From Arthrobacter ipis (GTDB taxonomy: Bacteria > Actinomycetota > Actinomycetes > Actinomycetales > Micrococcaceae): 64,000 nucleotides of DNA. Below the pieces are notes generated by a model. The model searched no databases. It saw only the letters and a program-made list of their open reading frames with translations, and was not told the DNA's origin. The stretch spans positions 82,839 to 146,838 of the forward strand of contig NZ_JAAOXD010000001.1 of NCBI RefSeq assembly GCF_014694315.1, given 5' to 3'. Within the stretch, counting starts at the first letter, position 1, and the number at the start of each line of letters is the position of its first letter. Positions 43,990 through 58,692 of the stretch are shown here, in pieces. The position numbers and the translations under genes are program-made.

Positions 43990-44250
43990 CTCTTGCTTCC
44001 CCCCGTACTGCGTCCTGTTGACGGCGCCGGCGCCTGGCAACGTGTGACGCGTTACAGCTCTTCCATTTGCTCCGCGTAGCCACGGATGTGACCTGGAGCA
44101 CAGAAGGTAACAGGTCGAGGTTGGGGTGCCTCCCCCCAAAATGGGGGGGGCGGCCGCTTTCACCTCCGCTTGCCCAAGGCTTGCCCTCCCCGTTCACCCA
44201 AGGCGTAGCCGCTGCTGGACTAGGCAGCGGGGGCTGATTGTTGTGTTGGA

Positions 44251-44275
44251 TAGCACCGGGTATTCACGGGTGCTA
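44251..44275 (+). promoter_or_regulatory. Hairpin just upstream of the protease ribosome binding site
   Basis: TAGCACC (44251-44257) and GGTGCTA (44269-44275) form a stem five bases before AAAGGAGG. It could affect access to the ribosome binding site or be an operator. The remainder of the 305-base gap 43990-44294 holds a C6/G8 palindrome (about 44130-44150, CCCCCC and GGGGGGGG around AAAAT) and no gene I can support; it must carry both divergent promoters. Confidence 0.4.
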
Positions 44276-44294
44276 ATTGCAAAGGAGGCCCTCA

Positions 44295-45278
44295 ATGTCC
44301 ACGGCGGCTGCAAATGAACCGGGTCCCGTCGAAGACGGCCCGGCCCTCGACTCTTACTCGGAGACGGTCATCAGGGTGGCCAGGACCGTCACGCCCCATG
44401 TGGCCGCCATTGAGATGACGGGGAACCGCCGCAACGGACGGTTCCGGGTCGGCGCCGGATCCGCGGTCCTGTTCACCGAGGACGGCTACCTGCTGACCAA
44501 CGCCCACGTGGTGGCAGGCACCCAGAAGGGCCGTGCCGTGTTCGCCGACGGCTCCAGTACAGACCTTGAAGTCGTTGGCGCGGATCCGTTGTCTGATCTG
44601 GCAGTGATCCGGGGCCGGGCCCCGCATGTCGCTCCTGCCGAGTTCGGGGACGCAGAGTCACTGCAGGTGGGGCAGTTGGTGATTGCCGTCGGAAACCCGC
44701 TGGGGCTCTCGGGCTCGGTGACGGCAGGTGTGGTCAGCGGACTGGGACGCGCCATACCGGTCTGGGCCGGACGCAACCGCAGGGTCATTGAAGATGTCAT
44801 CCAGACCGATGCCGCTTTGAACGCCGGCAGTTCCGGCGGGGCACTGGCCGACTCACGAAGCCGGATCGTGGGAATCAACACTGCCGTGGCGGGTGCCGGG
44901 CTGGGACTGGCCGTACCCATCAACCGCACGTCGCGCCGGATCATCTCCGCGCTCCTGTCGGACGGAAGGGTGCGGCGCGCCTATCTAGGCGTGGTCAGCA
45001 CCCCGATCCGGCTGGGGGCCAGCGAAGTGGTCCGCACCGGCCAGCGGGAGGGGCTGCGCGTCGTGGAGGTGCTCTCGGGTTCCCCGGCCGAGCAGGCAGG
45101 GCTAAAGACGGGCGATGTGCTGCTGCGCGTGGGCGCCCGCGCCGTCAGCAATGCCGAGAGCCTGCAGAAACTCCTCTTTGCCGAGGCCATCGGCGTCCCG
45201 ATGAACGTATCGGTCCTCCGCGACGGACACCTAACTGACGTCATAGCCGTCCCCGGCGAGATGGCGGACTGGGGATAG
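44295..45278 (+). CDS. Trypsin-like S1C serine protease with PDZ domain (HtrA/DegP family)
   Basis: The 327-residue protein has a chymotrypsin-fold protease domain (about residues 25-215) with the triad in LLTNAHVVAG (His), DPLSDLAVIRG (Asp) and NAGSSGGALADS (Ser), and one C-terminal PDZ domain (about 225-320; GLRVVEVLSGSPAEQAGLKT, GDVLLRVGAR). Such proteases degrade or refold damaged proteins. Unlike most HtrA homologues it has no signal peptide or membrane anchor, so it may be cytoplasmic or exported by another route. AAAGGAGG seven bases before the ATG fixes the start; the frame is open to 44277. A tandem 15-base repeat spans its stop codon. Confidence 0.9.
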   Translation: MSTAAANEPGPVEDGPALDSYSETVIRVARTVTPHVAAIEMTGNRRNGRFRVGAGSAVLFTEDGYLLTNAHVVAGTQKGRAVFADGSSTDLEVVGADPLSDLAVIRGRAPHVAPAEFGDAESLQVGQLVIAVGNPLGLSGSVTAGVVSGLGRAIPVWAGRNRRVIEDVIQTDAALNAGSSGGALADSRSRIVGINTAVAGAGLGLAVPINRTSRRIISALLSDGRVRRAYLGVVSTPIRLGASEVVRTGQREGLRVVEVLSGSPAEQAGLKTGDVLLRVGARAVSNAESLQKLLFAEAIGVPMNVSVLRDGHLTDVIAVPGEMADWG

Positions 45279-45328
45279 GCGGACTGGGGATAGGCGGATT
45301 GGGCACGGACCAGGGGCCGGGCACGAAA

Positions 45329-45362
45329 AACGGGGTGGCCAGGGAATCCTGGCCACCCCGTT
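45329..45362 (+). terminator. Intrinsic terminator between the protease and a convergent small gene
   Basis: AACGGGGTGGCCAGG (45329-45343), loop GAAT, CCTGGCCACCCCGTT (45348-45362): a perfect 15-base-pair stem with five A before it. Poly-U support is stronger on the minus strand, so it probably serves the convergent small gene ending at 45381 as well as the protease. Confidence 0.85.
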
Positions 45363-45380
45363 CTCGGTGGTATTGGGCAA

Positions 45381-45515
45381 TCAGCGTTTCTTCAGGTGCG
45401 CTACGGGGTCCGCTGCTCCCTCATGCGGGGCCTTGGCCTTCTTATCCGCGCGTTTCTGTTTGATGGTCTTGCCCGCTTTTTTCTGCTGTTGCTGGTGCGG
45501 CGATTTGTCCGGCAT
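45381..45515 (-). CDS. Small, very basic protein (44 residues)
   Basis: This short gene encodes 44 residues beginning MPDKSPHQQQQKKAGKTI and ending VAHLKKR, with ten or more lysines and arginines and no hydrophobic core. GAGGGAG lies upstream of the ATG and a strong terminator follows, so it has its own expression signals. The composition suggests binding to nucleic acid or another polyanion, or a disordered protein. I recall similar short Lys-rich hypotheticals in related genera, but no function is known to me. Confidence 0.7.
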   Translation of the reverse strand: MPDKSPHQQQQKKAGKTIKQKRADKKAKAPHEGAADPVAHLKKR

Positions 45516-45606
45516 GGCGTGCTCCCTCGTCCGAGGGGCAGGAGGGTGCCCCTCCCTACGTAAATTACGCCTGTTTCAGCCCAGATGTAACTGCCCGGCT
45601 TACCCG

Positions 45607-45993
45607 TCAGCCCGTGACGTCGGCGATTCCCACAAACCTGGTGCCAACGCCGTCGAACTCGCTCCGTACATATCCGGGCGCGGGCGGGGGAACCTCGGAG
45701 GGGCGGTGATGATCGCACACGACGTACGTGAACTCCGGCCACCACTTCTTTGGCCGGGCCGCCTCCTCGTAACCGCAGACCGCGCAAACGAGGTGCACCC
45801 ACACCGGCCGCTTCCCTGTCCGGTTGGCGCGGGACTGGACGAGCCACGCAGGCGGATTGTCCAGCAGTTCGCCAAGCTGGGCTTCGGTCAGAAGCTTGGG
45901 AATGCCGTGGCGCTGCGCCATTTCCAGTGGTACATCCAAGGCAATTGCCGCGTCACGTCTGCTGATCATCCAGTCCACGATACGGTAAGTCAT
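45607..45993 (-). CDS. Conserved hypothetical protein with a putative zinc knuckle
   Basis: About 128 residues. The N-terminal half (MTYRIVDWMISRRDAAIALD, then LPLEMAQRHGIPKLLTEAQL-like helices) could be a small helical DNA- or protein-binding part. The second half has VCAVCGYEEAARPKKW and TYVVCDHHRP: two Cys in CxxC spacing and a later Cys-x-His-His cluster that could bind zinc. The frame is open to 46116; I prefer the ATG at 45993, whose start codon overlaps the divergent MFS start (CATG). ATG at 45969 is an alternative; neither has a strong ribosome binding site. Function unknown. Confidence 0.65.
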   Translation of the reverse strand: MTYRIVDWMISRRDAAIALDVPLEMAQRHGIPKLLTEAQLGELLDNPPAWLVQSRANRTGKRPVWVHLVCAVCGYEEAARPKKWWPEFTYVVCDHHRPSEVPPPAPGYVRSEFDGVGTRFVGIADVTG

Positions 45994-47380
45994 GAGCGAT
46001 GCCAGCCAGACCACTGCTCCCACGCGTCTCCAGCGACAGGTGCTGGCTGTCGCGATCGTGGCGTCCTTCATGGCGATCCTTGACAGCTTCGTCGTCAGCC
46101 TGGCGCTGCCCGCCATCGGCAGGGAACTCGGCGGCGGCCTCCGCGTTCAGCAGTGGGTGGTGGATGCCTACCTCCTGACGCTCGGGGCGCTCATTCTGGC
46201 GGCCGGCTCGCTCTCGGACCATTTTGGACGGGTCCGGGTGCTGCAGTGGGGGCTGGGCGGGTTTGCCCTCACTTCGGTCCTCTGCGGGGCAGCGTGGACC
46301 GGTGAAATGCTGGTGATAAGCCGGGGGCTGCAGGGAGTGGCCGGAGCACTCCTGGTGCCCAGTTCGCTCGCGCTGATTGTCAGCCACTTCGACAGCGGCG
46401 CCCAGGGGGCGGCCATCGGCAAGTGGTCGGCGTGGACCAGTGCTGCAGCCATCGTGGCCCCCTTGATCGGCGGCGTATCAGTGGACCTGCTCTCGTGGCG
46501 GGTCATCTTCTTCGTCAACGTGCTGCCGGCGGTGGCCATCTGGCCCGTGCTGGCCAGGTTGCGCAAGGCCGACGCCGTCCCCGGCCCGGCCGGCACCATT
46601 GACATTGCCGGGGCGCTCCTGGCCGTCATCGCACTTGGCGGACCGGTGTACGCGCTGATCGAGCAGGGGACTGCAGGCTGGGGCAGCCCGCATGTCTGGC
46701 TGCCGCTGGCGGCAGGTCTCGTGGCCGCGGCGCTTTTCCTCGTTCATGAATCGCGCACTGCCGTGGCGCTCCTGCCCCTGGGCATGTTCAGGGTCCGGAA
46801 CTTCGGCTGGGGCAACATCGCCACCGCCGCGATCTACGGCGGCTTTTCCCTCGGGTTCTTTGCGCTGGGTATCTACATCCAGCAGGTGGGCGGCATGAAG
46901 GCGACCACCGCCGGCCTGGCACTGCTGCCTTCGACGGTGATCCTGATGCTGCTGGCATCGTTCTTCGGTGGCCTGGCCGGCAAGTACGGACCGCGGTGGT
47001 TCATGACGGCCGGTCCGGTGCTGTGTGCGGCCGGATTCCTGCTGACGCTGTCCGTTGGCGGCTCCCTGAACTACTGGACCCAGGTCCTGCCGGGGCAGGT
47101 GGTCTTCGGCCTCGGTCTTTCCATGACGGTGGCACCCCTGACGGCGGCCATCCTGGGATCAGTCCCTGAGAAGCAGGCCGGCGTGGGCTCGGCCGTGAAC
47201 AATGCGGTTTCGAGGATCGCCGGCCTGGTCTGCATCGCCTTTGCGGGCTTCATCATCGGTCCCGAGCTGACGACGGCGGGCCTGCACCGCGCGCTGCTGG
47301 CCACCGCCGCGCTGCTGTTGCTGGGTGCGGCCTGTTCCGCCGGCGGAATCCGCAACCCGGTGCCGGCTAGCCGCCGCTGA
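45992..47380 (+). CDS. MFS drug exporter, DHA2 (EmrB/QacA) type
   Basis: A 462-residue major facilitator protein with 13-14 membrane helices. LDSFVVSLALPAIGRELGGG in helix 1 is the DHA2 motif D1, GALILAAGSLSDHFGRVRVL is the MFS motif A loop, and GLQGVAGALLVPSSLALI the motif B/C region. Proton-driven efflux of hydrophobic compounds is expected, but the substrate is unknown. Its start is shared back-to-back with the divergent hypothetical gene, and its 3' end overlaps the convergent crcB gene by 14 bases. Confidence 0.9.
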   Translation: MSDASQTTAPTRLQRQVLAVAIVASFMAILDSFVVSLALPAIGRELGGGLRVQQWVVDAYLLTLGALILAAGSLSDHFGRVRVLQWGLGGFALTSVLCGAAWTGEMLVISRGLQGVAGALLVPSSLALIVSHFDSGAQGAAIGKWSAWTSAAAIVAPLIGGVSVDLLSWRVIFFVNVLPAVAIWPVLARLRKADAVPGPAGTIDIAGALLAVIALGGPVYALIEQGTAGWGSPHVWLPLAAGLVAAALFLVHESRTAVALLPLGMFRVRNFGWGNIATAAIYGGFSLGFFALGIYIQQVGGMKATTAGLALLPSTVILMLLASFFGGLAGKYGPRWFMTAGPVLCAAGFLLTLSVGGSLNYWTQVLPGQVVFGLGLSMTVAPLTAAILGSVPEKQAGVGSAVNNAVSRIAGLVCIAFAGFIIGPELTTAGLHRALLATAALLLLGAACSAGGIRNPVPASRR

Positions 47381-47732
47381 CCGCGATTCCCGCCCCGGCA
47401 GCAGCCAGCCCCAGCAGCAGATTTGCGAGGATGTTGGCGGCGGCGGCGAGGTAGCGCCGTTCACTGGCCAGCCGCACCGTCGCAGTGGTCCAGGAACTGA
47501 AAGTGGTCAGGCCGCCGGCGAACCCGGTGGCCAGGGCTGAGTGCCATTCGGGGCCGAATACCGCGGTGACGCCAACGGACAGCCCGATCACGAACGAGCC
47601 AGCCACGTTGACCAGCAGGGTAGCCCAGGGCCAGTGCCGCCGCGGCGACGGGAAGCCGGCCAGCCAGCCATCCACGGCGAACCGGAGGAGGGCTCCGGCG
47701 ATGCCGAAGAGACCAACGAGGAGCGCCGTCAC
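47367..47732 (-). CDS. crcB: Fluoride channel subunit CrcB/Fluc (second copy)
   Basis: A 121-residue four-helix membrane protein of the CrcB/Fluc family, which forms a dual-topology channel that releases fluoride from the cell. Family signatures are GIAGALLRFAVDGWL (first helix, GxxxR), WATLLVNVAGSFVIG (conserved Asn in the pore) and TGFAGGLTTFSSWTTAT (the central break with TTFS). The GTG start overlaps the stop of the first crcB copy by 4 bases. Actinobacteria often carry two different copies that work as a heterodimer, which the coupling here suggests. Confidence 0.93.
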   Translation of the reverse strand: MTALLVGLFGIAGALLRFAVDGWLAGFPSPRRHWPWATLLVNVAGSFVIGLSVGVTAVFGPEWHSALATGFAGGLTTFSSWTTATVRLASERRYLAAAANILANLLLGLAAAGAGIAVSGG

Positions 47733-48205
47733 TGTCCAGCACCACGAGGAGCGCCGCGGAAAGCGCGGGGCGCGCCGAGCACCCTGCCGGTCCGCCAGCC
47801 GGCGGCAGCCGCCGCCAGCCCCAGGAGGACGGACAGTCCCAGATAGAGAAGACCCAGGACGGGGAGCCCGGTGCGGGTCAGCTGGTCCGTGGAAAATACG
47901 ACGGCGGAGAAGGTGGTGAAGGAGCCCAGCACACCCGGCCCGATGGCCGCACGGAGCCAGAACGCGGTCTGCGGCCGCGCGATCCAGATGGTGGTGAGGG
48001 CCGCCAGCGTGAAGCTGCCGACGATGTTGATGCCCAGCGTGGCCCACGGCAGCTCTCCCGACTGGTCGGGGAACAGCAAGCCCAGCGCGTACCGGACTTC
48101 AGTGCCGAGCAGGCCGCCGGCGGCCACGGCCGTCCAGACCCGCCAGCCGTAGCCGGAGTCCGTCGTGGAGGCGGCGCCGGCGCGGCCGGCCAGGGGAGCC
48201 CGCAC
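47729..48205 (-). CDS. crcB: Fluoride channel subunit CrcB/Fluc (first copy)
   Basis: The 158-residue partner has an extra N-terminal 25 residues, then GGLLGTEVRYALGLLF, WATLGINIVGSFTLAAL and GVLGSFTTFSAVVFST, the same three Fluc signatures as the second copy but with about 30 extra C-terminal residues rich in Arg/Gly/Ala (GAPRAFRGAPRGAGQ). The GTG start is 7 bases from the stop of the DtxR-type gene, so both channels may be read from the regulator's transcript. No fluoride riboswitch is seen upstream. Confidence 0.92.
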   Translation of the reverse strand: MRAPLAGRAGAASTTDSGYGWRVWTAVAAGGLLGTEVRYALGLLFPDQSGELPWATLGINIVGSFTLAALTTIWIARPQTAFWLRAAIGPGVLGSFTTFSAVVFSTDQLTRTGLPVLGLLYLGLSVLLGLAAAAAGWRTGRVLGAPRAFRGAPRGAGQ

Positions 48206-48211
48206 CAGTGC

Positions 48212-48925
48212 CTACAGGCCGGCCATGCGGCAGCCGGGATGCGCGGAGTCGCTGTGGATCCAAAGCGCGGAGGCCACTTCGTCGGCCAGGTCGACGTCGC
48301 GGCTGGTCCCGGGGGAGCCAATGCGGACAACCAGCGCGCCGCCGAAGGGCTTGCGTCCGCGCACCTCGACATCGGCGTCGAGGCTGATCTTTTCCGCGGC
48401 GAGGTAGCGCAGCAGCTCCGGGTTCTCGTCGCTGATCCGGGTGATCCTGCCCGTGTGGCCGTCGTCGAGCTCAATCATGCGGTGGGCGGACGGCATCCGA
48501 ACGGAACCGTCGGCCGAGGGGATGGGATCGCCGTGAGGGTCCCTGGACGGGTTGCCCAGCCGGGCTGCCAGCCTCTCAATAAACGTGTCCGAGACCGCAT
48601 GCTCCAGCTGTTCGGCCTCATCATGGACTTCGTCCCAGCTGTATCCGAGATCCGTGACCAGATACGTCTCGATGAGCCGGTGCCGCCGGACCATGGAGAG
48701 GGCAAGCCGGACTCCCTGGGGCGTGAGCGTGATGGCGCTGTAAGGCTTGTGGAGGACAAGGCCCTGGTCCTTGAGCTTGCGAACCATCTCAGAGACTGAA
48801 GAATTGGCCACGCCGAGGCGCTGTGCAAGCTGGGTGGAGGTGATGGGCTTGTCCTGCCATTCCGTGAAGGAATAGATGACCTTAACGTAGTCCTCGATTG
48901 AGGAGGAGGGCGTACTGGTCTTCAC
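48212..48925 (-). CDS. DtxR/IdeR/MntR-family metal-dependent regulator
   Basis: A 237-residue repressor with the DtxR layout: N-terminal winged helix (TSTQLAQRLGVANSSVSEMV as the recognition helices), a metal-binding dimerisation domain (HRLIETYLVTDLGYSWDEVH and EQLEHAVSDTFIERLAARLG, with the H/E/D ligands) and a C-terminal SH3-like domain (about 160-235). With iron or manganese it would bind DNA at metal-uptake promoters. The frame is open to 49036, but the GTG at 48925, giving VKTSTPSSSIEDYVKVIY, fits family N-termini. It lies between a methyltransferase gene and the crcB pair. Confidence 0.9.
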   Translation of the reverse strand: MKTSTPSSSIEDYVKVIYSFTEWQDKPITSTQLAQRLGVANSSVSEMVRKLKDQGLVLHKPYSAITLTPQGVRLALSMVRRHRLIETYLVTDLGYSWDEVHDEAEQLEHAVSDTFIERLAARLGNPSRDPHGDPIPSADGSVRMPSAHRMIELDDGHTGRITRISDENPELLRYLAAEKISLDADVEVRGRKPFGGALVVRIGSPGTSRDVDLADEVASALWIHSDSAHPGCRMAGL

Positions 48926-48935
48926 AGCTTCAAGC

Positions 48936-49715
48936 CTACCTGTTGCCACCAGGCCGTTCGGACCTGACAGCCCGCCAGGTCTGGGTGAGGTAGGGGAGCT
49001 GCAGCAGTTCGCCCTCGGCATGCCCGAGGTGTTCATGCAGGTACCAGGCCAGGTTGCCGGTCACCTTGGCCCGGGTGGCGTCATTGGCCGCGAGGTAATA
49101 GCTGCGGGACTTGGTCAGTTCGAGGATGTCGTCGGGGGTGACGGGATCCTCCCACCGGGTCAGGTGACTTTCGAGGGACGAGAATTCCGGGCCGATTTTG
49201 GGGCGGAAGTCCGGTTTGTGGACGTCCCCGGCGTGCATGATGCGGGACAGCCGGTGCACCCAGGGCACTGATGTGTCCAGCTGGTTCCAGATCAGGCCAA
49301 GCACCCCGTGCGGCTTGAGGATCCGGGAAATCTCGGTGCTGGCCCGCAGCGGGTTGCACCAGTGCCATGCCTGGGCAACGCTGACGACGTCGAACGCCGC
49401 CTCGGGCAGTCCGGTCGCCTCCGCGGTCCCTTCCAGGGCTTGAACCCCGGGGTAGTCGCGGCTGAGCTGCTCCAGCATGCCCAGGGAAGGATCCACCGCG
49501 CTGACGCTCAGCCCGCGTTCCACCAGCAATGCCGTGAATTTGCCGGTTCCGGCGCCAACGTCGGCAGCAGTGCGGGCCCCGGCTGGAATGAGCCAGTCCG
49601 CGGAATCACCCGGGTAGCCGGGACGGACCCGGTGGTAGTGCTCGCCGCCGTCCTGGAAGCTCTGCCCAAGCTCCTGCCGCCGCCCGTGATGAAGTTTGGG
49701 ACCACCCCGTGCCAC
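48936..49715 (-). CDS. Class I SAM-dependent methyltransferase (UbiE/Methyltransf_11 type)
   Basis: A 259-residue enzyme with the SAM-binding motif ADVGAGTGKFTALLVERGL (about residue 50), the acidic SAVDPSLGM strand, and FDVVSVAQAWHWCNP as the post-motif region. The QAWHW and WNQLDTSVPWVHRL segments are typical of a fungal/bacterial small-molecule methyltransferase group. The substrate is not predictable. It is transcribed towards the DtxR-type regulator, 10 bases before that gene's start, and could share its transcript. Confidence 0.86.
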   Translation of the reverse strand: MARGGPKLHHGRRQELGQSFQDGGEHYHRVRPGYPGDSADWLIPAGARTAADVGAGTGKFTALLVERGLSVSAVDPSLGMLEQLSRDYPGVQALEGTAEATGLPEAAFDVVSVAQAWHWCNPLRASTEISRILKPHGVLGLIWNQLDTSVPWVHRLSRIMHAGDVHKPDFRPKIGPEFSSLESHLTRWEDPVTPDDILELTKSRSYYLAANDATRAKVTGNLAWYLHEHLGHAEGELLQLPYLTQTWRAVRSERPGGNR

Positions 49716-49831
49716 GCACAGTCTCCTTAGCCCGACGTCGAAAATTACCTTTTGAATCTACCGCACCGGGACCGCTGGTAGGGGACCGCTGCGGTGGCAG
49801 GCCGGGGTGACGGCTTAGTCCGGGGCGGCGG

Positions 49832-51238
49832 CTAGTCCTGCGCGCAGGGTGCGGCGCCCGCGGTGCAGGGGGTGTTGGGGGCCCACTCCGGGTAGGTGCG
49901 GGTGTCGTTCGCCGGGACCCAGCGTCCGGCGTCCACCACGTAGTCCCAGCCGAGGCCGGAGCGGCGGAGTTCCTCGATGCCGGCGAGCAGCCGCTGGGCG
50001 TCCTCGAGCCGTGATCCCACGCCGAAGCTGGCGCGCAAGGATCCGGACGGCAGGCCGAGGCGCTTCAGCAGCGGGTGCGCGCAGAAGCGGCCATCGCGCA
50101 GGCCCACGCCGTGTTCGGCCGACAGGTAGGCGGCCACGAGGCCGGCGTCGTATCCCTCCACGGAGAAGTTGACCACGCCGATGGCATCGTCCGGGTCGCT
50201 GTCGGCGAAGATCTGGTGGACGGTGACGCCGTCGATCTTGCCCAGCCCCTCGACGAGGAAGGACCGGATGGCGGCCTCATGGGCGTGCCAGCCCTGCGGA
50301 TCCAGGGCAGCGATGACCTGGGTTGCCCGGGCCAGGGTGGCTGCTCCGAGCACGTTGGGTGAGCCGCCCTCGTGGCGTGCGGGGCCGGTGGCCCAGCTGA
50401 CGCCGTCGAGCCTGGCCTCGCTCACGGCGCCGCCGCCGGCAAGGTGGGGGGTGCCGGCGTCGAGCCAGTCGGGGCGGCCGATCAGGACGCCGGCCCCGAA
50501 GGGGGCGTAGAGCTTGTGGCCGGAGAAGGCGAGGTAGTCGACGTCGTCCGCGGCGATGTTGACGCGGCGGTGAGGCGCGAGCTGGGCGGCGTCCACCACG
50601 ATCCGGGCGCCGAATTCATGGGCAAGCGCAGCGAGGCGCCGGATCGGAAGGATTTCGCCGGTGACGTTGGAGGCGCCGGTCACGGCGAGGAGGCTGACAT
50701 CGCCGTGCTCCAGTTCGGCGCGCAGGCTGCCGATGGTGGCTTCCAGGGTCTCCGATGCCACCACGCTGCGGTGCGGCACTCCCTGCCACGGCAGCAGGTT
50801 GGCGTGGTGCTCGATGTCCAGGTACAGCACTTCGCCGGTGTGGTGGTGGTCCTCCACGGGCAGGCAGCCGGCCAGGAGGTTGAGGGAGTCGGTGGTGTTC
50901 CGGGTGAAGATGACGGCGTCATCGGCCCGGCCGCCCACGAACTCCCGCACGATGCTTCGCGAGTTCTCGTATACGGAGGTGCTGATCTGCGAGGCATAGC
51001 CGGCGCCGCGGTGCACGCTCGCGTAGTACGGCAGGATCTCGTTGAGGTACGCAGAAACCACCGACAGCGCTGGCGCTGAGGCGCCGTAATCGAGGTTGGC
51101 GTAGCGGACGTGGCCGCCCTGGATCAGAGGAGCCTGGATTTCCGCGCCGGTGACGGCTGCCAGGGGACGGCCGGCGGCGGCAAATCGGCCGTCCAGCACG
51201 CCCGAGCCGGTGGTGGAAGAAATGGTTGCAGTCGTCAT
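49832..51238 (-). CDS. Aminotransferase class V enzyme, cysteine desulfurase-like
   Basis: A 468-residue PLP enzyme of the SufS/CsdA type. YANLDYGASAPALSVVSAYL opens the fold; IEHHANLLPWQ, VDAAQLAPHRRVNI and AFSGHKLYAPFGAGVLIG (Schiff-base lysine) are the cofactor blocks; LRDGRFCAHPLLKRLGL holds the cysteine in the position of the SufS nucleophile. It has about 45 extra C-terminal residues with GRWVPANDTRTYPEWAP and two late Cys. It is not in a suf operon; instead a SAM-IV riboswitch precedes it, linking it to methionine/sulfur supply. It could release sulfur from cysteine or a related thiol, but the exact substrate is inferred. Confidence 0.85.
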   Translation of the reverse strand: MTTATISSTTGSGVLDGRFAAAGRPLAAVTGAEIQAPLIQGGHVRYANLDYGASAPALSVVSAYLNEILPYYASVHRGAGYASQISTSVYENSRSIVREFVGGRADDAVIFTRNTTDSLNLLAGCLPVEDHHHTGEVLYLDIEHHANLLPWQGVPHRSVVASETLEATIGSLRAELEHGDVSLLAVTGASNVTGEILPIRRLAALAHEFGARIVVDAAQLAPHRRVNIAADDVDYLAFSGHKLYAPFGAGVLIGRPDWLDAGTPHLAGGGAVSEARLDGVSWATGPARHEGGSPNVLGAATLARATQVIAALDPQGWHAHEAAIRSFLVEGLGKIDGVTVHQIFADSDPDDAIGVVNFSVEGYDAGLVAAYLSAEHGVGLRDGRFCAHPLLKRLGLPSGSLRASFGVGSRLEDAQRLLAGIEELRRSGLGWDYVVDAGRWVPANDTRTYPEWAPNTPCTAGAAPCAQD

Positions 51239-51255
51239 GGGACCTCACTGAGAAA

Positions 51256-51277
51256 GGACCCCGTGTGACGGGGATCC
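51256..51277 (-). promoter_or_regulatory. Expression-platform hairpin below the SAM-IV aptamer
   Basis: On the minus strand GGATCCCCGT, loop CAC, ACGGGGTCC forms a stem, followed by TTTCTC and then the GTGAGG ribosome binding site about 20 bases before the ATG of the PLP enzyme. It lies between the aptamer and the start codon, so it may be the switch that the riboswitch controls, either as a weak terminator or by affecting the ribosome binding site. Confidence 0.5.
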
Positions 51278-51303
51278 GCGCTTGCCGGGTCCGTTCCGGA
51301 TCG

Positions 51304-51387
51304 GCCTGGTCGTCACCCGGGGCACCCCACCGCGAATGGAGGGTTGCCGGCCAGCTAACCGGGGTTTAGCGCTGGCACTCGTGACCT
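51304..51387 (-). promoter_or_regulatory. SAM-IV riboswitch
   Basis: On the minus strand the region reads with all landmarks of the actinobacterial SAM-IV aptamer. GGTCACGAG at the 5' end pairs with GACGACC at the 3' end (P1). GCCAGC pairs with GCTGGC around an ACCCCGGTT loop (P2 and pseudoknot), and GGCAACCC...GGGGTGCC forms P3, followed by CCGGGTGA. SAM binding normally lowers expression of sulfur or methionine genes. It controls the adjacent desulfurase-like gene. The family was recognised by eye from conserved segments, not by covariance search. Confidence 0.8.
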
Positions 51388-51486
51388 GTTACGAGACTAG
51401 GACATCCGGACGGGCGATGAAAAAGCCTGTTCGGAATGTTAAGCGGATTATTACGGAGCGCGGATATCGGGCTCTTGGCCGAACAA

Positions 51487-51526
51487 ACGACGGCGAACGC
51501 ACCCGCAAGGGGGCATCCGCCGTCGT
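51487..51526 (-). terminator. Terminator downstream of hisN
   Basis: On the minus strand ACGACGGCG (51526-51518) pairs with CGCCGTCGT (51495-51487), with an inner CCCC/GGGT arm, followed by TTGTT. It lies 40 bases after the hisN stop and separates hisN from the riboswitch-controlled gene. Confidence 0.75.
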
Positions 51527-51567
51527 AATATTCAGCACAAAAGCCGCAAGGCGCGGCGGGACGAAAA

Positions 51568-52380
51568 CTAGAGCAAATCGTCCAGCTGCGGGTTCAGGCG
51601 CTTGAGGACTTCCGAGTGCAGGATTGAGTTTGTCGCCAGCGCATTGCCGCCGAACGGGCCGTCGGTGCCTTCAAGGGAGGTGAAACGGCCGCCTGCCTCG
51701 GTCACGATCGGCACCAGCGCCGCCATGTCGTACAAGTTCAGCTCGGGTTCGCAGGCGATGTCGACGGCCCCTTCGGCCACCATGCAGTAGGACCAGAAAT
51801 CGCCAAAGGCCCGGGTGCGCCAAACTTCCTCGGTCAGCTGGAGGAACTCATCAAGGTTTCCGCGGTCTTTCCAGCCGCCGAGGCTGGAGTAGGACAGTGA
51901 GGCGTCGGCGAGGCTGGACACATTGGATACCTTGAGCCTCGTAGCGGCCGCGAGGGAACGGCCCGAGTAGGCTCCGGCGCCCTTCGCCGCCCACCAGCGC
52001 TTGCCCAGCGCAGGGGCGCTGACCACGCCAACCACGGGTTCGCCCTCGTCGACGAGGGCGATCAGCGTGGCCCACACCGGCACTCCGCGGACAAAGTTCT
52101 TGGTGCCGTCGATGGGGTCGATGATCCAGCGGCGGGAACCATGGCCGGAACTTCCGAACTCCTCACCGAGCACGGCGTCGCGGGGGCGGGAACGGGACAG
52201 CTGGCCGCGGATGGATTCCTCGGCGGCCTTGTCCGCATCGGTGACCGGCGTCAGATCTGGCTTCGTCTCGATCTTGAGGTCCAGCGCCTTGAACCGGCTC
52301 ATGGTCTGGTCGTCCACGGAATCGGCCAGCACATGGGCCAGACGCAGGTCATCGTTGTAGGTTGAAGCGGGTTGGGTCAT
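51568..52380 (-). CDS. hisN: Inositol monophosphatase-family histidinol-phosphatase HisN
   Basis: A 270-residue metal-dependent phosphatase of the IMPase fold. The metal site is visible in [10 protein letters not shown] (Glu), [17 protein letters not shown] (D-x-x-DGT) and [20 protein letters not shown] (the late Asp). In actinobacteria this family member performs the histidinol-phosphate phosphatase step of histidine synthesis; myo-inositol-phosphatase activity is the alternative. It follows rsgA after 66 bases in the same direction, as in related genomes, and ends before a terminator. Confidence 0.85.
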
Positions 52381-52446
52381 GGTTCCAAACTACCCGCAAA
52401 GGCCCGTCGGGGCGGGGAGGCAGCCGCCGGGCTGCGCCGCGGGAGG

Positions 52447-53562
52447 CTAGCCGACGCTGCCGAGTTCCTTGGTTTCCTGGGCCTCCATGCGCGGGTCGGT
52501 GCCCAGCAGGCGGCGCAGTGACGCGAGCCTGGCTGCTCCGGTTGGGCCTGCATAGCCGGCCGCTACCCATGCATCCACGCCGCAGTTGACGGCAGTGGCG
52601 TCGTGCTTGCAGCCTCGTTCGCAGGCCTCGGTGCCCGGCTCAAGGTCGGGGAAGGAGTGCAGGATGCGGTCCGGGTCGACGTGGGCCAGCCCGAAGGAGC
52701 GGATGCCCGGCGTGTCGATGATCCAGCTCCCCGCCGGGGCGTCAGCGAGCTTGAGGGCAAGGGCCGACGACGACGTGTGCCGTCCGCGGCCCGTCACGGC
52801 GTTGACGCCGCCGGTGGCACGTTCGGCGCCCGTCAGGGCGTTGACCATGGTGGATTTTCCGACGCCGGAATGGCCCAGCATCACGGTCACCTTGCCGTCC
52901 AGGTGGGCGCGGAGCTCGGACACAGCGGCCACGTCGAGCCGGGCGGAGAGGCCGTCGTCGGACCGGGCGTCGATGCCGCCGGCCTCGGAATCGGCGGTGC
53001 GGCTGATGATGACCGGAAAGTCGAGGTGGCGGTAGTTGTCCAGCAGCCCGGTGGGGTCCTTGACGTCCGCCTTGGTGACCAGCAGCAGTGGTTCGATCCC
53101 GGCGTCGTAGGCTGCCACCAGCGCCCGGTCAATAAACCCCGTGCGGGGCTCCGGGTTGGCCGCAGCGACAACCACCACCAGCTGGTCCGCGTTGGCCACA
53201 ACCGCCCGTTCCACGGGATCGGTGTCATCCGCGCTCCGGCGCAGCAGGGTTTTGCGGTCCTGGATTTTCACGAGCCGGGCAAGCGTGTCCGGCTCGCCGG
53301 ACACGTCACCCACGAGGGACACGAAGTCTCCGGCCACCACGGGGGAGCGTCGGAGTTCCCGGGCGCGGGCAGCGATGACCGTCCGCTCGTTGCCCGAATC
53401 CTCGCCTACGACAGCTGTGTAACGGCCGCGGTCAACGGTGATGATCCGTCCGGTCACGGCGTCCTCATGGCTGGGCCGGTCCTTCGTCCGGGGCCGGGAA
53501 CCTTTTTTGTTCGGCCGGATCCGGACGTCGGATTCGTCCCAGGAATCAGTGCTGCGTGCCAC
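52447..53562 (-). CDS. rsgA: Ribosome small subunit-dependent GTPase RsgA
   Basis: RsgA is a circularly permuted GTPase that helps late 30S maturation. The 371-residue protein has an OB-fold N-terminus ([20 protein letters not shown]), then the GTPase motifs in permuted order: LLVTKADV (G4), [14 protein letters not shown] (G1), GRHTSS (G2), [12 protein letters not shown] (G3). A C-terminal zinc knuckle [14 protein letters not shown] with C-x4... His and Cys ligands follows. The frame is open far upstream within aroA, but the GTG at 53562, with AGGGACC six bases before it, is the likely start; it overlaps the aroA 3' end by 17 bases. Confidence 0.95.
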
Positions 53563-54967
53563 CGGTGGTCCCTGCGGTGTTGGCGCCTGCCGTGTCTGCG
53601 CCTGCGCTGTTGGCGCCTGCGCCAATAGGCTGTTCGAGCATGTCCGCCCACAGCTTGGGGAAGTCCGGCATGGTCTTGGACGTTGTGGCGATGTCCTGCA
53701 CTTCCACACCCCTGACCGCCAGCCCGAGGATGGCCCCGGCGGTGGCCATCCGGTGGTCGGCGTAGCTGTACACGACGCCGGCGCGGAGCTTCGCGGGCCG
53801 GATGATGAGTCCGTCCTCTGTTTCCTCGGCATCGCCGCCGAGGCGGTTGATCTCGGTGACGAGCGCGGCGAGCCGGTCCGTCTCGTGTCCGCGGAGATGG
53901 GCGATGCCGCTCAGCCGGGAGGGGCCTGTGGCCAACGCACACAGAGCGGCGACGGTGGGCGCGAGCTCACTGGTTTCGGCGAAGTCGGCCCCCTTGATTT
54001 CACTGCCGCCGGTCACCGTCAGGGTGCCGTCCTGCAGGGTCACCGTTGCCCCCATGTCGGTGAGGATGCTGCGCCACATGTCGCCCACCTGTGTGGTGTG
54101 CTCCGGCCAATCCGGAATCCGTACGGTGCCGCCCGTCGCCAGGGCAGCGGCCAGGAACGGGCCGGCGTTGGACAGGTCCTGCTCGATGCGCTGGTCGAAC
54201 GCACGGATCGGGCCGGGGCTGACGATCCAGTGGTTCGGCGTGGAGTCATCCACCACCACGCCCGCGCCGCGCAGCACGGCAATCGTCATGTTGATATGGT
54301 CCAGGCTTGGCACCGTGCTGCCGGAGTGTTCAAGGTGTAGGCCGCCCGCGAACCGTGCCCCCACCAGCAGCAGGGCTGAGACGAACTGCGAGGACGCGCT
54401 GGCGTCAATGACGAGGTGACCGCCGCGGACCTGCCCCGTGCCGTCGACGCGGAACGGCAGCGAAGCGGGCATACCGCCGTCGTCGCCGCTGACGGCGACG
54501 CCCAGGCCCGCAAGTGCCTCGATGATGGTTCCCATCGGACGCGCCCGGGCGTGGGGGTCGCCGTCGAAAACGGTGGCGCCGCTGCGGAGTGCCGCCAGCG
54601 GCGGAACAAACCTCATGACGGTTCCGGCCAGGCCGCAGTCGATGGCGACGTCGGCACCGCCGGAGTTGGCCGGAATCGGCGTCACCTCCAGGTCCGGGCC
54701 GAAGGCGCCGTCGCCCGGCACTTCCCGGATGTCCGCACCCAGCTGGCGCAGGGCTTCGATCATCAGCGCTGAGTCGCGGGAGTGCAGCGGCGCCCGGAGC
54801 CGGGACGGCCCGTCGGCGAGCGCGGCGAGCACCAGGTACCGGTTGGTCAGCGACTTTGAGCCCGGCACGCGGACCGTGGCGTCAACCGGCTGCTCCGCAA
54901 ACGGCGCGGGCCAGTGCGGAGCTGCGCCGGAGGTCTCAGCGGACGCGCCCATGGGTGAAGCCGTCAT
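53546..54967 (-). CDS. aroA: 3-phosphoshikimate 1-carboxyvinyltransferase (EPSP synthase)
   Basis: AroA joins shikimate-3-phosphate and phosphoenolpyruvate in chorismate synthesis. The 473-residue protein has [20 protein letters not shown] (phosphate-binding Lys/Ser), [20 protein letters not shown] and the second-half motif [19 protein letters not shown]. Length is near normal except for a C-terminal Ala/Gly/Thr-rich tail ([19 protein letters not shown]), encoded by imperfect 15-base repeats that run into the rsgA start region. Its ATG is 7 bases from the stop of the DoxX gene. Confidence 0.95.
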
Positions 54968-54973
54968 TCCTGC

Positions 54974-55543
54974 TTATGCCCCCACCGCGTGGTCAACAGC
55001 CCGGCGGACTGCCCTGTCGGCGTTGCGGACAGCCTTGTCGGCGCTGTGCAGCTTCTTGCCGGTGGTCTTGCGGGCGTCCGCGGCGAGGTGGCTCGCGGTC
55101 TTGCGTGCATCGGCGGCGAGGTGCTCTGCGCGCCAGGCCAGGCCGGGCCTGCCGGCTGTGTCCACGGAGGCCAGCAGCACACCGCCGGTGAGGGTGATGT
55201 TCTTGAGCAGTTGGTTGCGGCGGGCATCGCGGCCCTCCTTGCTGCTGATGTCCGCGCTGCGCCATTCAACGAAGGCGTTCAGTGCCGAGATGACGGCCAG
55301 CACCGAGGCTGCCAGGCGCGCGGATTTTCCGAGCGCGAAGAGGACGCCTGCACCCACCTGCGCTCCGCCGATGACCCGTGCCAAGACCTTCTCGTCCGTC
55401 TGGAACGGCAGGGCTTCGGAGGCGCGGCGCAGGAGGGGCGACAGTTGCTGTGCGGTGTCGTCCGCATTCCTGAGCTTGTCCGTTCCGGCGAGGATGAAAC
55501 TTGAGGCCAGCATCGGCCGGGCAAAAAAGCGGACAACGGACAT
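54974..55543 (-). CDS. DoxX-family membrane protein
   Basis: A 189-residue protein with a DoxX domain of four helices: SVVRFFARPMLASSFILAGT, VIGGAQVGAGVLFALGKSAR, AASVLAVISALNAFVEWRS and LLKNITLTGGVLLASVDTAG. It has a long charged C-terminal tail with two copies of AADARKT and two of ADRAVRRAV-like sequence. DoxX proteins are tied to quinone- or thiosulfate-linked redox chemistry and, in mycobacteria, to superoxide and thiol defence. The ATG at 55543 has AGGAGGA six bases before it. It diverges from sigR across a 270-450-base region that holds a SigR-type promoter. Confidence 0.87.
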   Translation of the reverse strand: MSVVRFFARPMLASSFILAGTDKLRNADDTAQQLSPLLRRASEALPFQTDEKVLARVIGGAQVGAGVLFALGKSARLAASVLAVISALNAFVEWRSADISSKEGRDARRNQLLKNITLTGGVLLASVDTAGRPGLAWRAEHLAADARKTASHLAADARKTTGKKLHSADKAVRNADRAVRRAVDHAVGA

Positions 55544-55610
55544 GAATTTCCTCCTGGATGGCCGAGCCGCGGGGGCCGCGGCGGAGTCGGTTCTAGTCTT
55601 GCACTTTTGC

Positions 55611-55636
55611 GGAATATTTGCCCACCGCGCGTCGTT
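55611..55636 (+). promoter_or_regulatory. SigR/SigH-type promoter upstream of sigR
   Basis: GGAAT (55611-55615), 18 bases, GTT (55634-55636) is an exact match to the thiol-stress sigma factor consensus, oriented towards sigR-rshA. Transcription would start near 55644, about 350 bases before the conserved ATG and before the in-frame GTG at 55816. This predicts positive autoregulation, as known for sigR in Streptomyces and sigH in mycobacteria. Confidence 0.75.
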
Positions 55637-55995
55637 GTGCACTTCAGGCCGGAAGCAGTCAGCAGGCGGTGTCCTGTGCGGTTTCCGGTGTTCAGCGGCG
55701 GCTGGGGAATGGCCGGAACCGGCAAGAGCGCGGACCGTCGCACGAACGCGGCCCTGATCAAGCGGGTCTTAATAGGCGGAGTGGAGATGGAGCATTGACT
55801 TTGGTGAAGGAAGCTGTGGGGGTGCGAAGTCCCGCCATGATGCGGCCGTTTGTGGTGCCGGAAGCCGACGCGCCCGAGGGTGGAAATGCCTTCTCGGGCC
55901 CGGACGTCTTCGCCGGCCCGGAGTACGGCACGGCGCGCTCCGGCACGGCACGCCTAAAGACGCGGTCGGCGACGATCAAAGTAGACTTGAACGCA

Positions 55996-56724
55996 ATGAG
56001 CACCGTGGATCCGGCCCTGCAGGGCATACAGGAGGACGCCGCCAACGGCATCCCGAAGACTGGCACGTCACCCGCCGCTGAAGCGGCAGAGGATATCGAC
56101 GTCGGTTCGGAGAGCGCCGAAGCGCGCCGCGCCCGGTTTGAGCGTGACGCCATGCAGTACGTGGACCAGCTCTATTCGGCGGCTATGCGCATGGCGCGGA
56201 ACCCGGCCGATGCCGAGGACCTTGTGCAGGAGGCGTATACCAAGGCGTTCTCCGCGTTCCATCAGTACAAGCCGGGCACCAACCTGAAGGCCTGGCTGTA
56301 CCGCATCCTGACGAACACCTACATCAACCTGTACCGGAAGCGGCAGCGGGAACCCCTGCAGTCGAATTCGGACACCATCGAGGACTGGCAGCTTGCCCGC
56401 GCCGAGTCCCACACCTCCAGCGGTCTGCGGTCCGCGGAGGCCGAGGCCCTGGACCACCTGCCTGATTCGGACGTCAAGCGGGCCCTGCAGGCCATCCCGG
56501 AGGAGTTCCGGCTGGCCGTGTACTTCGCCGACGTGGAGGGCTTCGCGTACAAGGAAATTTCGGACATCATGAACACCCCCATCGGTACTGTGATGTCCCG
56601 GCTCCACCGGGGCCGGAAGATGCTGCGGGACGAGCTGGCGGACTACGCCGCCGACCGGGGATTCAAAGCTGCTGCAGACGCCACGGCGGCAACGGAAAGC
56701 AACAAACAGGAGAACGGGAAATGA
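55996..56724 (+). CDS. sigR: Thiol-oxidative stress ECF sigma factor SigR/SigH
   Basis: A group 4 sigma factor of 242 residues that directs RNA polymerase to GGAAT/GTT promoters when thiols are oxidised. Region 2 is [36 protein letters not shown] and [20 protein letters not shown]; region 4 is [20 protein letters not shown] and [20 protein letters not shown]. The ATG used gives the core protein and lies 8 bases after a -10-like TAGACT, so it could be translated leaderless. The frame stays open and GC3-rich upstream, with a GTG at 55816 (AAGGA before it) that would add 60 residues, like the long SigR isoform of Streptomyces. rshA overlaps its stop. Confidence 0.92.
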
Positions 56725-56981
56725 GCGACTGCCAGGGATTGGGCGATTGCGATGACACCAGGATGCAACGCATCTACGAGTATCTGGACGGGGCCTTGAC
56801 CCGCAGCGACCTTGCGGAGATCAAGCAGCACCTGGACGAGTGCCCTGAGTGCACGCAGCAGTACGATCTGGAGTGCGTCATTCGAAAAGTGGTGAAGCGC
56901 TCCTGTACCGAGGCTGCTCCGGAAAACCTGAAGAACGCCATCCTGCAGCGGATTCACACGATCCGGCCGGTGGACGCCTGA
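56721..56981 (+). CDS. rshA: Zinc-binding anti-sigma factor RshA/RsrA
   Basis: The 86-residue ZAS-domain anti-sigma factor holds SigR inactive until disulphide formation releases its zinc. The HxxxCxxC motif is HLDECPEC (H37, C41, C44), exactly the RsrA positions, with C4 or C10 (CQGLGDC) as the additional ligand. Two more cysteines (C52, C61) follow. The ATG overlaps the sigR stop by 4 bases, giving the coupled stoichiometry expected of the pair, and a perfect terminator hairpin follows. Confidence 0.94.
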
Positions 56982-56994
56982 CGGGTTGCCTGAC

Positions 56995-57045
56995 TTAAAC
57001 GCGATGCCCCCGCTACCTTGCTGGTAGCGGGGGCATCGCGTTTAA
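56995..57045. terminator. Perfect bidirectional terminator between rshA and bL37
   Basis: TTAAACGCGATGCCCCC...GCTACC (56995-57017), loop TTGCT, then the exact complement ending GCGTTTAA (57023-57045): a 23-base-pair uninterrupted stem with A/T ends on both sides. It would stop rshA transcription and the convergent bL37 gene. Confidence 0.92.
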
Positions 57046-57065
57046 GCTTCGGTTCAAGCCGTGGC

Positions 57066-57140
57066 TTAGGTGTTGGGGCGCTTCCCGTGGTTCGCGCCGC
57101 CACGCTTACGGTCACGACGCTTACGTGCACGCTTGCTCAT
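57066..57140 (-). CDS. Ribosomal protein bL37 (24 residues)
   Basis: A 24-residue, extremely basic protein starting MSKRARKRRDRKRGG and ending ANHGKRPNT. It matches the actinobacterial large-subunit protein bL37 first seen in the Mycobacterium smegmatis ribosome structure, whose sequence ends with the same NHGKRPN block. A strong GGAGG lies upstream of the ATG (minus strand of 57145-57150), and a perfect terminator follows. Because it is so short it is easily missed in annotation. Confidence 0.88.
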   Translation of the reverse strand: MSKRARKRRDRKRGGANHGKRPNT

Positions 57141-57259
57141 AGCTGGCCTCCTTAATTTCGTTACCCAAAAGAGTTGCCCTCTAGTCTCCCATATCAGCGG
57201 ACCGGCTGCGAACCGGCTGCTGTGCGGGGCAGGGCACCGGGACGGTGCCCGGACGGCGC

Positions 57260-57865
57260 CTACAGTGAGTTACGGATCGAGACCCGGGCCTGGTCCAGCA
57301 CGGTCCGAACGGTTTCCAGGGCCACCGGTGTCATGGGCCGGGAGCTGGTGTGCAGGCGCAGCTCGGCGCGCATGTCGTCGCGGAACGCCTGCAGCAGCAT
57401 CTCCGCTTCCTTGAGCATGTGCTGCCCCTCCGGGGTGTAACGGCCCGGGACGGCCGGATCCACGGACCTGGCAGCCGTGCGTGCCGCTTCCGCTGTGGCC
57501 GCCAGGTCCGCACGCAGCCCGCGCATGTTGCTGCGGATGTCGGCGCGAAGGTCATCGGCGAGCCGGCGGACGGATGCTGCAATGTCGTTTTCCACGGTCT
57601 CCAGCTCCTCGCGCCGGCTGTTCAGCTCAGCCAGGCCCGCAGCGGTGATGCGGTAGTTGGTGCGGCGCCCCTGGGATTCCGTGGCCACCAGGCCTTCCTC
57701 CTCCAGCTTGCCCAGGCGCGGATAGATGGTACCGGCGCTGGGGGAGTAGGTTCCGCCGAACCGTTCGCTGAGCGCCTTGATGAGTTCATATCCGTGCTTG
57801 GGGCCCGACTCAAGGAGTGCCAGCAGATAGAGCCGGAGTGCGCCGTGGGCAAAGACGGGGGGCAT
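57260..57865 (-). CDS. PadR-family transcriptional regulator
   Basis: A 201-residue PadR repressor: winged-helix domain LRLYLLALLESGPKHGYELI, YSPSAGTIYPRLGKLEEEGL (recognition helix and the SxGTIYP signature) and ESQGRRTNYRITAAGLAEL, followed by a longer helical C-terminal domain (about 90 residues) for dimerisation. It starts on the last base of the stop codon of the DUF4097 gene, so it is the second gene of that operon. The GATATATC repeats ahead of the operon are the likely autoregulatory operators; the ligand is unknown. Confidence 0.9.
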   Translation of the reverse strand: MPPVFAHGALRLYLLALLESGPKHGYELIKALSERFGGTYSPSAGTIYPRLGKLEEEGLVATESQGRRTNYRITAAGLAELNSRREELETVENDIAASVRRLADDLRADIRSNMRGLRADLAATAEAARTAARSVDPAVPGRYTPEGQHMLKEAEMLLQAFRDDMRAELRLHTSSRPMTPVALETVRTVLDQARVSIRNSL

Positions 57866-58692
57866 CAGAGTGCCGGTTCCGGGGTGGCCGGTGCCTGGCC
57901 ATGGAAAATGGACGTCTTCCCGGACACGGAGTTGGTCCGGACCAGCATGAGTTTGGCGTCCGGGCCCGAGATGGTCTGCACCTTGCCGCCGGGGTGGCCA
58001 TACTTCCGGTCGTCGATGACCACCGGACCGGTGGCCGACTGGGCCACGATGTCCACGCCGACGTCGTGCGGGACGCGGACAGTCAGGTCCCCGGACACGG
58101 AGTTCGCGCCGAAGTCGTGGGTGAAGCCGTGCAAGTCAAAGCTCATGTCGCCGCTGACGGTGTTGGCCCGGATATTGCTGAACTGGCCGGACGCCGTGAC
58201 CTCCCCTGAGACGCTCTTGGCCGTGAGGACGCCGCTGTGGTTGCGGGCGATCACTTCCCCGCTGACGGTGTTGACGTGCAGGTCACCAGTGGTTCCGTCG
58301 GCCAGCAGGGATCCTGTCACGGTGCTCAGCCGGGTCCGGCCGTGGACGCCCGAGACCAGCCCGTCCCCGCTGACGGTGCCCGCCTCGACCTCGACGCCGG
58401 CTGGGACAGCGATGCTGATGACCACGGAGTTGTCGCTGCTGTTGTTGACCGAATCCATGAGATTCTTGAACCAGCCCTGCGGCCCATGCAGCTGGTGGCG
58501 GATTTCGAGACGCCCGCCGGTCACGGACACGGCCAGCGGATCGCCGTGCACGTCCGACACCTCTATCCGGACGGATGGCTCATCATGCGTGACGATGTCC
58601 AGCCTGCCGCGGACAATACCAACCTTGAGGTGCGAGACGCCGTCGACGTCCATGGTCTGCGGGCCGGTGACGGTCCAGGAATTCTCTTCCAT
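57865..58692 (-). CDS. DUF4097-type beta-repeat protein
   Basis: A 275-residue protein made of short repeated strands of the form V-S-G-(D/E)-h-x-h, for example NTVSGEVIARN, KSVSGEVTASG, NTVSGDMSFDL and NSVSGDLTVRV: a right-handed beta-helix typical of DUF4097 (adhesin-like) proteins. There is no signal peptide, so it may stay in the cytoplasm or be surface-linked in another way. GGAGG six bases before the ATG at 58692 fixes the start (a GTG at 58704 is less likely). It heads the operon with PadR; such pairings are common in actinobacteria, but the function is unknown. Confidence 0.85.
   Translation of the reverse strand: MEENSWTVTGPQTMDVDGVSHLKVGIVRGRLDIVTHDEPSVRIEVSDVHGDPLAVSVTGGRLEIRHQLHGPQGWFKNLMDSVNNSSDNSVVISIAVPAGVEVEAGTVSGDGLVSGVHGRTRLSTVTGSLLADGTTGDLHVNTVSGEVIARNHSGVLTAKSVSGEVTASGQFSNIRANTVSGDMSFDLHGFTHDFGANSVSGDLTVRVPHDVGVDIVAQSATGPVVIDDRKYGHPGGKVQTISGPDAKLMLVRTNSVSGKTSIFHGQAPATPEPAL

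Follow-up and report, generated by a model that had tools for sequence, protein, structure and literature searches.

Cysteine desulfurases have been studied as suppliers of sulfur for Fe-S clusters, thio-cofactors, and tRNA. In the DNA analyzed here, a stretch of 64,000 nucleotides from Arthrobacter ipis (the window), a gene for a SufS-like desulfurase follows a SAM-IV riboswitch and lies outside a suf operon. What would the sulfur mobilized by such an enzyme be used for, and which molecule would accept it? The reading favored here, at a probability of about 0.5, is that the protein is a second, SAM-repressed cysteine desulfurase that would supply the sulfur of homocysteine, its own C-terminal cysteine replacing SufU. 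If this is true, homocysteine joins the destinations of desulfurase sulfur. The gene and its leader comprise the following features.

51273..51386, minus strand: complete SAM-IV riboswitch aptamer (RF00634), from the Rfam covariance search.
51256..51277, minus strand: post-aptamer hairpin GGATCCC-CGTCACAC-GGGGTCC, the likely expression platform, from leader comparison and terminator scoring.
51243..51248, minus strand: Shine-Dalgarno-like GTGAGG, read from the sequence.
49832..51238, minus strand: gene for a 468-aa SufS-like type-II cysteine desulfurase (Aminotran_5) of the SAM-IV clade, from Pfam, TIGR01979, the tree, and the AF2 model.

The sequence-only reading had called the leader a SAM-IV riboswitch and proposed a covariance search for it. 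That search (cmscan) matches the whole model (1–116 of 116) at 113 bits against a cut-off of 38 (E 9.8e-21), which bears out the class; it is the sole match in the Rfam covariance search of positions 44000–58000 of the window. The spacing has to be corrected. Said to lie 66–150 bases before the gene, the aptamer is 35–148 nt upstream of the ATG at 51238, with 34 nt separating its end from the ATG. Judged from the sequence, the desulfurase-like gene is almost certainly under SAM-IV control.

The 5' arm of the hairpin overlaps the final GGATC of the aptamer, and TTTCT comes after the hairpin. Of 75 leaders, 66 have a stem of 6 bp or more that begins at the same GG and shows many compensatory changes, its forms being GGAUCCC/GGGGUCC, GGAUUCC/GGAGUCC, GGCCCC/GGGGCC, GGACUC/GAGUCC, and GGACCCGG/CCGGGUCC. 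By score, the hairpin of the window is a weak terminator-like site, and the T run after the hairpin is short in most species. Attenuation at this hairpin is a plausible mechanism of switching, and the direction of switching (SAM represses) is presumed by analogy with known SAM-IV biology. In Streptomyces clavuligerus, RNA-seq revealed a prominent premature transcript at the riboswitch of the desulfurase homologue (PMC8269248). The Shine-Dalgarno-like GTGAGG is kept in most Arthrobacter-group leaders. A pairing of the aptamer 5' strand with the Shine-Dalgarno region, seen in the minimum-energy fold, is not conserved and is treated as an artefact. The longest ORF of several orthologues (L038, L048, L058) begins within the aptamer, so automatic annotation may put gene starts inside the riboswitch.

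The desulfurase gene occurs well beyond the window. All 24 same-genus genomes have an orthologue (82–89% identity), and orthologues at 55–62% identity occur in three further families of the order. When the phylum was sampled evenly, 16 of 247 genomes carried one, the own genome among them, and eight of these 16 belong to one Streptomyces-like genus. SAM-IV lies upstream of 42 of the 47 orthologues tested (the sum of three locus sets, 20/20, 14/17, and 8/10), in at least ten actinobacterial families. With the aptamer kept upstream in so many relatives, chance does not account for the combination. Among the carriers are Arthrobacter, Pseudarthrobacter, Paenarthrobacter, Sinomonas, Specibacter, Leifsonia, and Cryobacterium, as well as Nocardioides, Actinopolymorpha, Jiangella, Rhodococcus, Nocardia, and Cellulomonas. 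Orthologues about 74% identical are also present in records named Sporosarcina beigongshangi and Acidobacteria bacterium G2_11 (L114, L127); the L127 orthologue clusters with Micrococcaceae in the tree, and both assemblies are probably mislabelled or contaminated.

The pairing is real, conserved, and, for Streptomyces, partly published. It has been annotated in S. lividans (SLIV_26975; PMC8079986) and S. clavuligerus (CRV15_21540; PMC8269248), and the same SAM-IV and desulfurase pairing is found in the eight Streptomyces-like genomes. Neither paper gives a function beyond the family name (cysteine desulfurase or class-V aminotransferase) and a pathway label. The present analysis contributes the regulon context and the covarying hairpin and, for the enzyme, the terminal cysteine and the loss of the SufU site. 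A literature search turned up no earlier description of these two enzyme features, and none of a desulfurase feeding homocysteine.

That the gene stands outside a suf operon, as had been noted from the sequence alone, is confirmed by its neighbors. A HisN-type phosphatase gene lies upstream on the same strand, and genes for a methyltransferase, an MntR/DtxR-type regulator, and CrcB lie downstream; suf gene context and a sufU partner are absent at the locus. The canonical sufS-sufU pair of the genome, in which SufU follows SufS, sits on another contig. Over 29 representative loci, the desulfurase gene mostly stands alone without a universal neighbor, and no conserved operon partner was found, rhodanese links aside. 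A large gene adjacent to it in Nocardiaceae, at first a candidate for MetH, appears to encode an NRPS-like synthetase. In Nocardia carnea and N. vermiculata (L153 2919-4453 and L150 3057-4579, both minus strand), the desulfurase gene is divergent from a small cluster in which a WelO5-like 2OG-Fe oxygenase is encoded along with a CDPS-like protein. The gap between gene and cluster holds an S-box in N. carnea, so that both SAM riboswitch types face each other there.

Two codons identify the protein as a member of the desulfurase family.

50513..50515, minus strand: K242, the PLP lysine in SGHKLYAP, invariant in the SAM-IV clade and canonical SufS.
50081..50083, minus strand: C386, the active-site cysteine in RDGRFCAHP, invariant in 25/25 SAM-IV-clade members and 20/20 SufS.

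The ORF at 49832–51238 matches Aminotran_5 (PF00266, 260 bits), and the desulfurase-like character first ascribed to it on the strength of the SufS cysteine and PLP lysine holds. Its best score against SufS-type desulfurases (TIGR01979, 269 bits) is under the curated cut-off of 475.1. The catalytic residues H76, R77, H144, H145, Q219, K242, R381, C386, and R402 are retained; the PLP lysine, the catalytic histidines (H144/H145), the substrate arginines (R381/R402), and the active-site cysteine are invariant. The AlphaFold2 model (mean pLDDT 85.9) finds SufS structures as its best PDB matches, M. tuberculosis SufS-SufU first. With SufS of M. tuberculosis (Rv1464) and B. subtilis, the enzyme thus shares the fold and these four kinds of residue. 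It differs in its SAM-IV control, in the absence of suf context, in a tail with an invariant cysteine, and in its motif, which is RDGxFCAHP in the clade where SufS has RxGHHCAxP. In a tree of 56 proteins, the SAM-IV clade and SufS are separate at 100/100 support. All 23 genomes searched contain a canonical SufS, to which the SAM-IV-type protein, an additional copy, is 35–44% identical over the matched stretches. The clade is a distinct one of type-II cysteine desulfurases, and the conversion of L-cysteine to alanine and a persulfide is very probably its chemistry.

One of two departures from SufS lies in the residues to which SufU binds.

50141..50149, minus strand: codons 364–366 (D-A-G), D364 at the place of H352 and G366 at the place of H354 of M. 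tuberculosis SufS.

In M. tuberculosis SufS, His352, His354, Asp355, and His371 are strictly conserved SufU contacts, of which His354 takes over the zinc of SufU in a zinc swap; E. coli SufS, which has Tyr at the place of His354, gives no transfer to M. tuberculosis SufU (PMC10216065). The M. tuberculosis numbering was matched by counting from the active-site cysteine and by alignment, and Asp355 corresponds to L367, the codon after the tract above. The four columns read H, H, D, and H in all 20 canonical SufS sequences. Among the 25 SAM-IV-clade members, in contrast, the zinc-swap column is always G, R, or S, the Asp355 column is never D, and the His371 column is always R, K, L, or C. In the His352 column, two members have His, and most of the others have D, E, N, S, or A. 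Three of the contacts, and mostly the fourth, are thus replaced. A SufE homologue is present in the own genome and in seven other enzyme-bearing genomes, and none was found in the Streptomyces-like genomes, the Nocardia-like genomes, G045, or G135. SufE could, from this distribution, serve as acceptor in some species and not in all; SufE or SufU as a universal acceptor is not supported, the SufU site being lost and SufE being patchy.

The acceptor may instead reside in the enzyme itself, in the second departure from SufS, a C-terminal tail that carries two cysteines.

49844..49846, minus strand: C465, the conserved terminal cysteine (GAAPC), invariant in 35/35 sequences of alignment A3.
49865..49867, minus strand: C458, the second tail cysteine, strain-specific, Gly in relatives.

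An extension with two extra cysteines had been pointed out before. The extension is real and C465 is invariant in the alignment, whose 35 members are 54–90% identical to the window protein; C458 is private to the strain and is Gly in close relatives, a 98% identical orthologue included. Past the last helix, the tail varies freely yet ends in cysteine, and the AF2 model has low confidence there (about 61). Among 16 representatives at 70% clustering, a cysteine falls within the last 12 residues in ten and within the last 17 in 12, and a terminal cysteine is absent in four. The expectation by chance is about 2.5 of 16 at the roughly 1% cysteine of the protein body. The short Jiangella tail (RADRPCD) retains the terminal cysteine, and Streptomyces-like members have a shorter tail with a cysteine 5–17 residues from the end (GRCVP). 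No such cysteine is present at the C-terminus of canonical SufS (23 loci, two of them not counted because of a wrong ORF).

Type-II desulfurases require a transpersulfurase because their persulfide is shielded. With the SufU site lost and a mobile terminal thiol gained, the most economical interpretation has C465 attacking or accepting the persulfide on C386, and the terminal cysteine has about an even chance of being an acceptor or resolver of this kind. The same anatomy, a flexible tail with one invariant cysteine, would serve a redox latch, in which the terminal cysteine would form a disulfide with C386 and turn the enzyme off under oxidation, without accepting sulfur. Such a latch leaves the coincident loss of the SufU site unexplained and is considered rather unlikely.

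The substrate may also be other than cysteine. In the manner of C-DES or EgtE, the enzyme could act as a C-S lyase on an S-substituted cysteine, cystine, or a salvage intermediate and deliver a thiol or sulfide to methionine. The class-V family includes such lyases, both EgtE and C-DES match weakly, the surroundings of the active site are family-specific (G80, Y81, F385, H388), and a cysteine-dioxygenase-like gene is a neighbor in Actinopolymorpha. However, the residues of the desulfurase mechanism (C386, H144/H145, R381, R402) are invariant, and the EgtE score of 59 is far under the cut-off of 400. A lyase of this type is judged unlikely.

The destination of the sulfur is suggested by the regulon. 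The genome has three SAM-IV elements, preceding the desulfurase gene, metX, and a DUF1737-rhodanese-metZ operon, which places the desulfurase gene in the methionine/SAM regulon. Other SAM-IV copies in the phylum sample lie upstream of metY, metX, and rhodanese-metZ, and in M. avium SAM-IV lies upstream of O-acetylhomoserine sulfhydrylase (PMC3774663). The SAM-IV targets across genomes thus group the desulfurase gene with the enzymes that make homocysteine by direct sulfhydrylation. The aptamer family and the presumed repression by SAM are the same as for metY (M. avium), metX, and metZ; the target here, however, is a desulfurase and not an enzyme that forms homocysteine. Homocysteine is the destination most consistent with the regulon, and somewhat probably the true one. 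The sequence-only reading had proposed sulfur supply to methionine or sulfur salvage rather than Fe-S assembly. The SAM-IV control behind that proposal is conserved, and it is the methionine role that gains support, indirectly, from the metX/rhodanese-metZ regulon, the canonical SufS in 23 of 23 genomes, and the lost SufU site.

Gene neighborhoods are suggestive of a tie to rhodanese in several lineages, not universally. A rhodanese gene is directly downstream of the desulfurase gene in the MAG KLAP93 (L180, 8760-9101) and second downstream, after the cysteine-dioxygenase-like gene, in Actinopolymorpha rutila (L133). Rhodanese-metZ is divergent from the desulfurase gene in Cellulomonas marina (L159) and a few kb away in G031 (L176) and G036 (L177). 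Strict co-occurrence with MetZ or its rhodanese was not found in the genome comparison: the enzyme occurs without a close MetZ or that rhodanese in all eight Streptomyces-like genomes and in the same-genus genome G017, and mycobacteria-like genomes (g20) have MetZ and the rhodanese and lack the desulfurase. Rhodanese-MetZ as the partner in the own genome is put forward tentatively.

The mechanism that we infer, in its substrate, tail chemistry, acceptor, and pathway, would run as follows. At high SAM, the SAM-IV leader would fold and lower expression via the hairpin after the aptamer; at low SAM, the enzyme would be made along with MetX and the DUF1737-rhodanese-MetZ operon. Cysteine sulfur would be moved onto C386, with alanine leaving, and C465 of the flexible tail would take over or reductively resolve the persulfide, a task performed for SufS by SufU or SufE. 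Sulfide would be released, or sulfur handed on, for homocysteine synthesis; here it would probably reach MetZ as sulfide or via the rhodanese. The widest form of this proposal, a self-sufficient desulfurase that has dropped the external transpersulfurase, uses C465 as a swinging arm, and together with rhodanese-MetZ or a Streptomyces CysO-type carrier forms a SAM-controlled cysteine-to-homocysteine route bypassing cystathionine, is doubtful. A widespread methionine-controlled clade without the SufU site and with its own thiol would provide a simple test of a partner-free desulfurase.

Streptomyces-like genomes may use a different route. All eight carry the desulfurase with SAM-IV, metX is absent in five, and a close MetZ in all. 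The enzyme is a candidate source of homocysteine sulfur in Streptomyces without MetX. An S-box (SAM-I) riboswitch is present in all three of these genomes searched for one. In both genomes read in detail (L163, L165; G046, G155), it precedes a threonine-synthase-like gene, which at L163, the one locus with enough sequence, is followed by a ThiS-family (CysO-like) carrier. In these genomes, the desulfurase could feed a homocysteine route based on such a carrier. That the desulfurase, at least in Streptomyces, charges a CysO/ThiS-type carrier via a MoeZ-like enzyme and makes it the donor for homocysteine is quite unlikely: the arrangement is not seen in the genome of the window, and homocysteine formation by the carrier with a threonine-synthase-like enzyme is only putative.

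Least probable is a redundant SufS for Fe-S clusters, SAM-controlled since many radical SAM enzymes need clusters: the fold and catalytic residues are those of SufS, but the clade is separate, every genome searched has canonical SufS, the SufU docking residues are lost, the other SAM-IV genes of the genome are metX and metZ and no suf genes, and repression by SAM is ill suited to a cluster supplier for SAM users.

Further riboswitch matches were observed at other loci. A Streptomyces-like SAM-IV (L078, G209:C23:2278-2391) lies about 450 nt before a gene for an ABC-transporter solute-binding lipoprotein, and in G045 (L178) the gene immediately after that of the desulfurase encodes a similar solute-binding protein. 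Weaker SAM-IV matches of 58–85 bits in distant Actinomycetota (L073 and L074; G156 and G274) precede genes of a protein family that has a conserved CxCGF motif close to its N-terminus. In the own genome, an acyl-CoA/acetyl-CoA-synthetase-like gene is preceded by an S-box-like match (L169, G000:C11:83813-83948) that stays below threshold, at 41.1 bits for a cut-off of 44.4.
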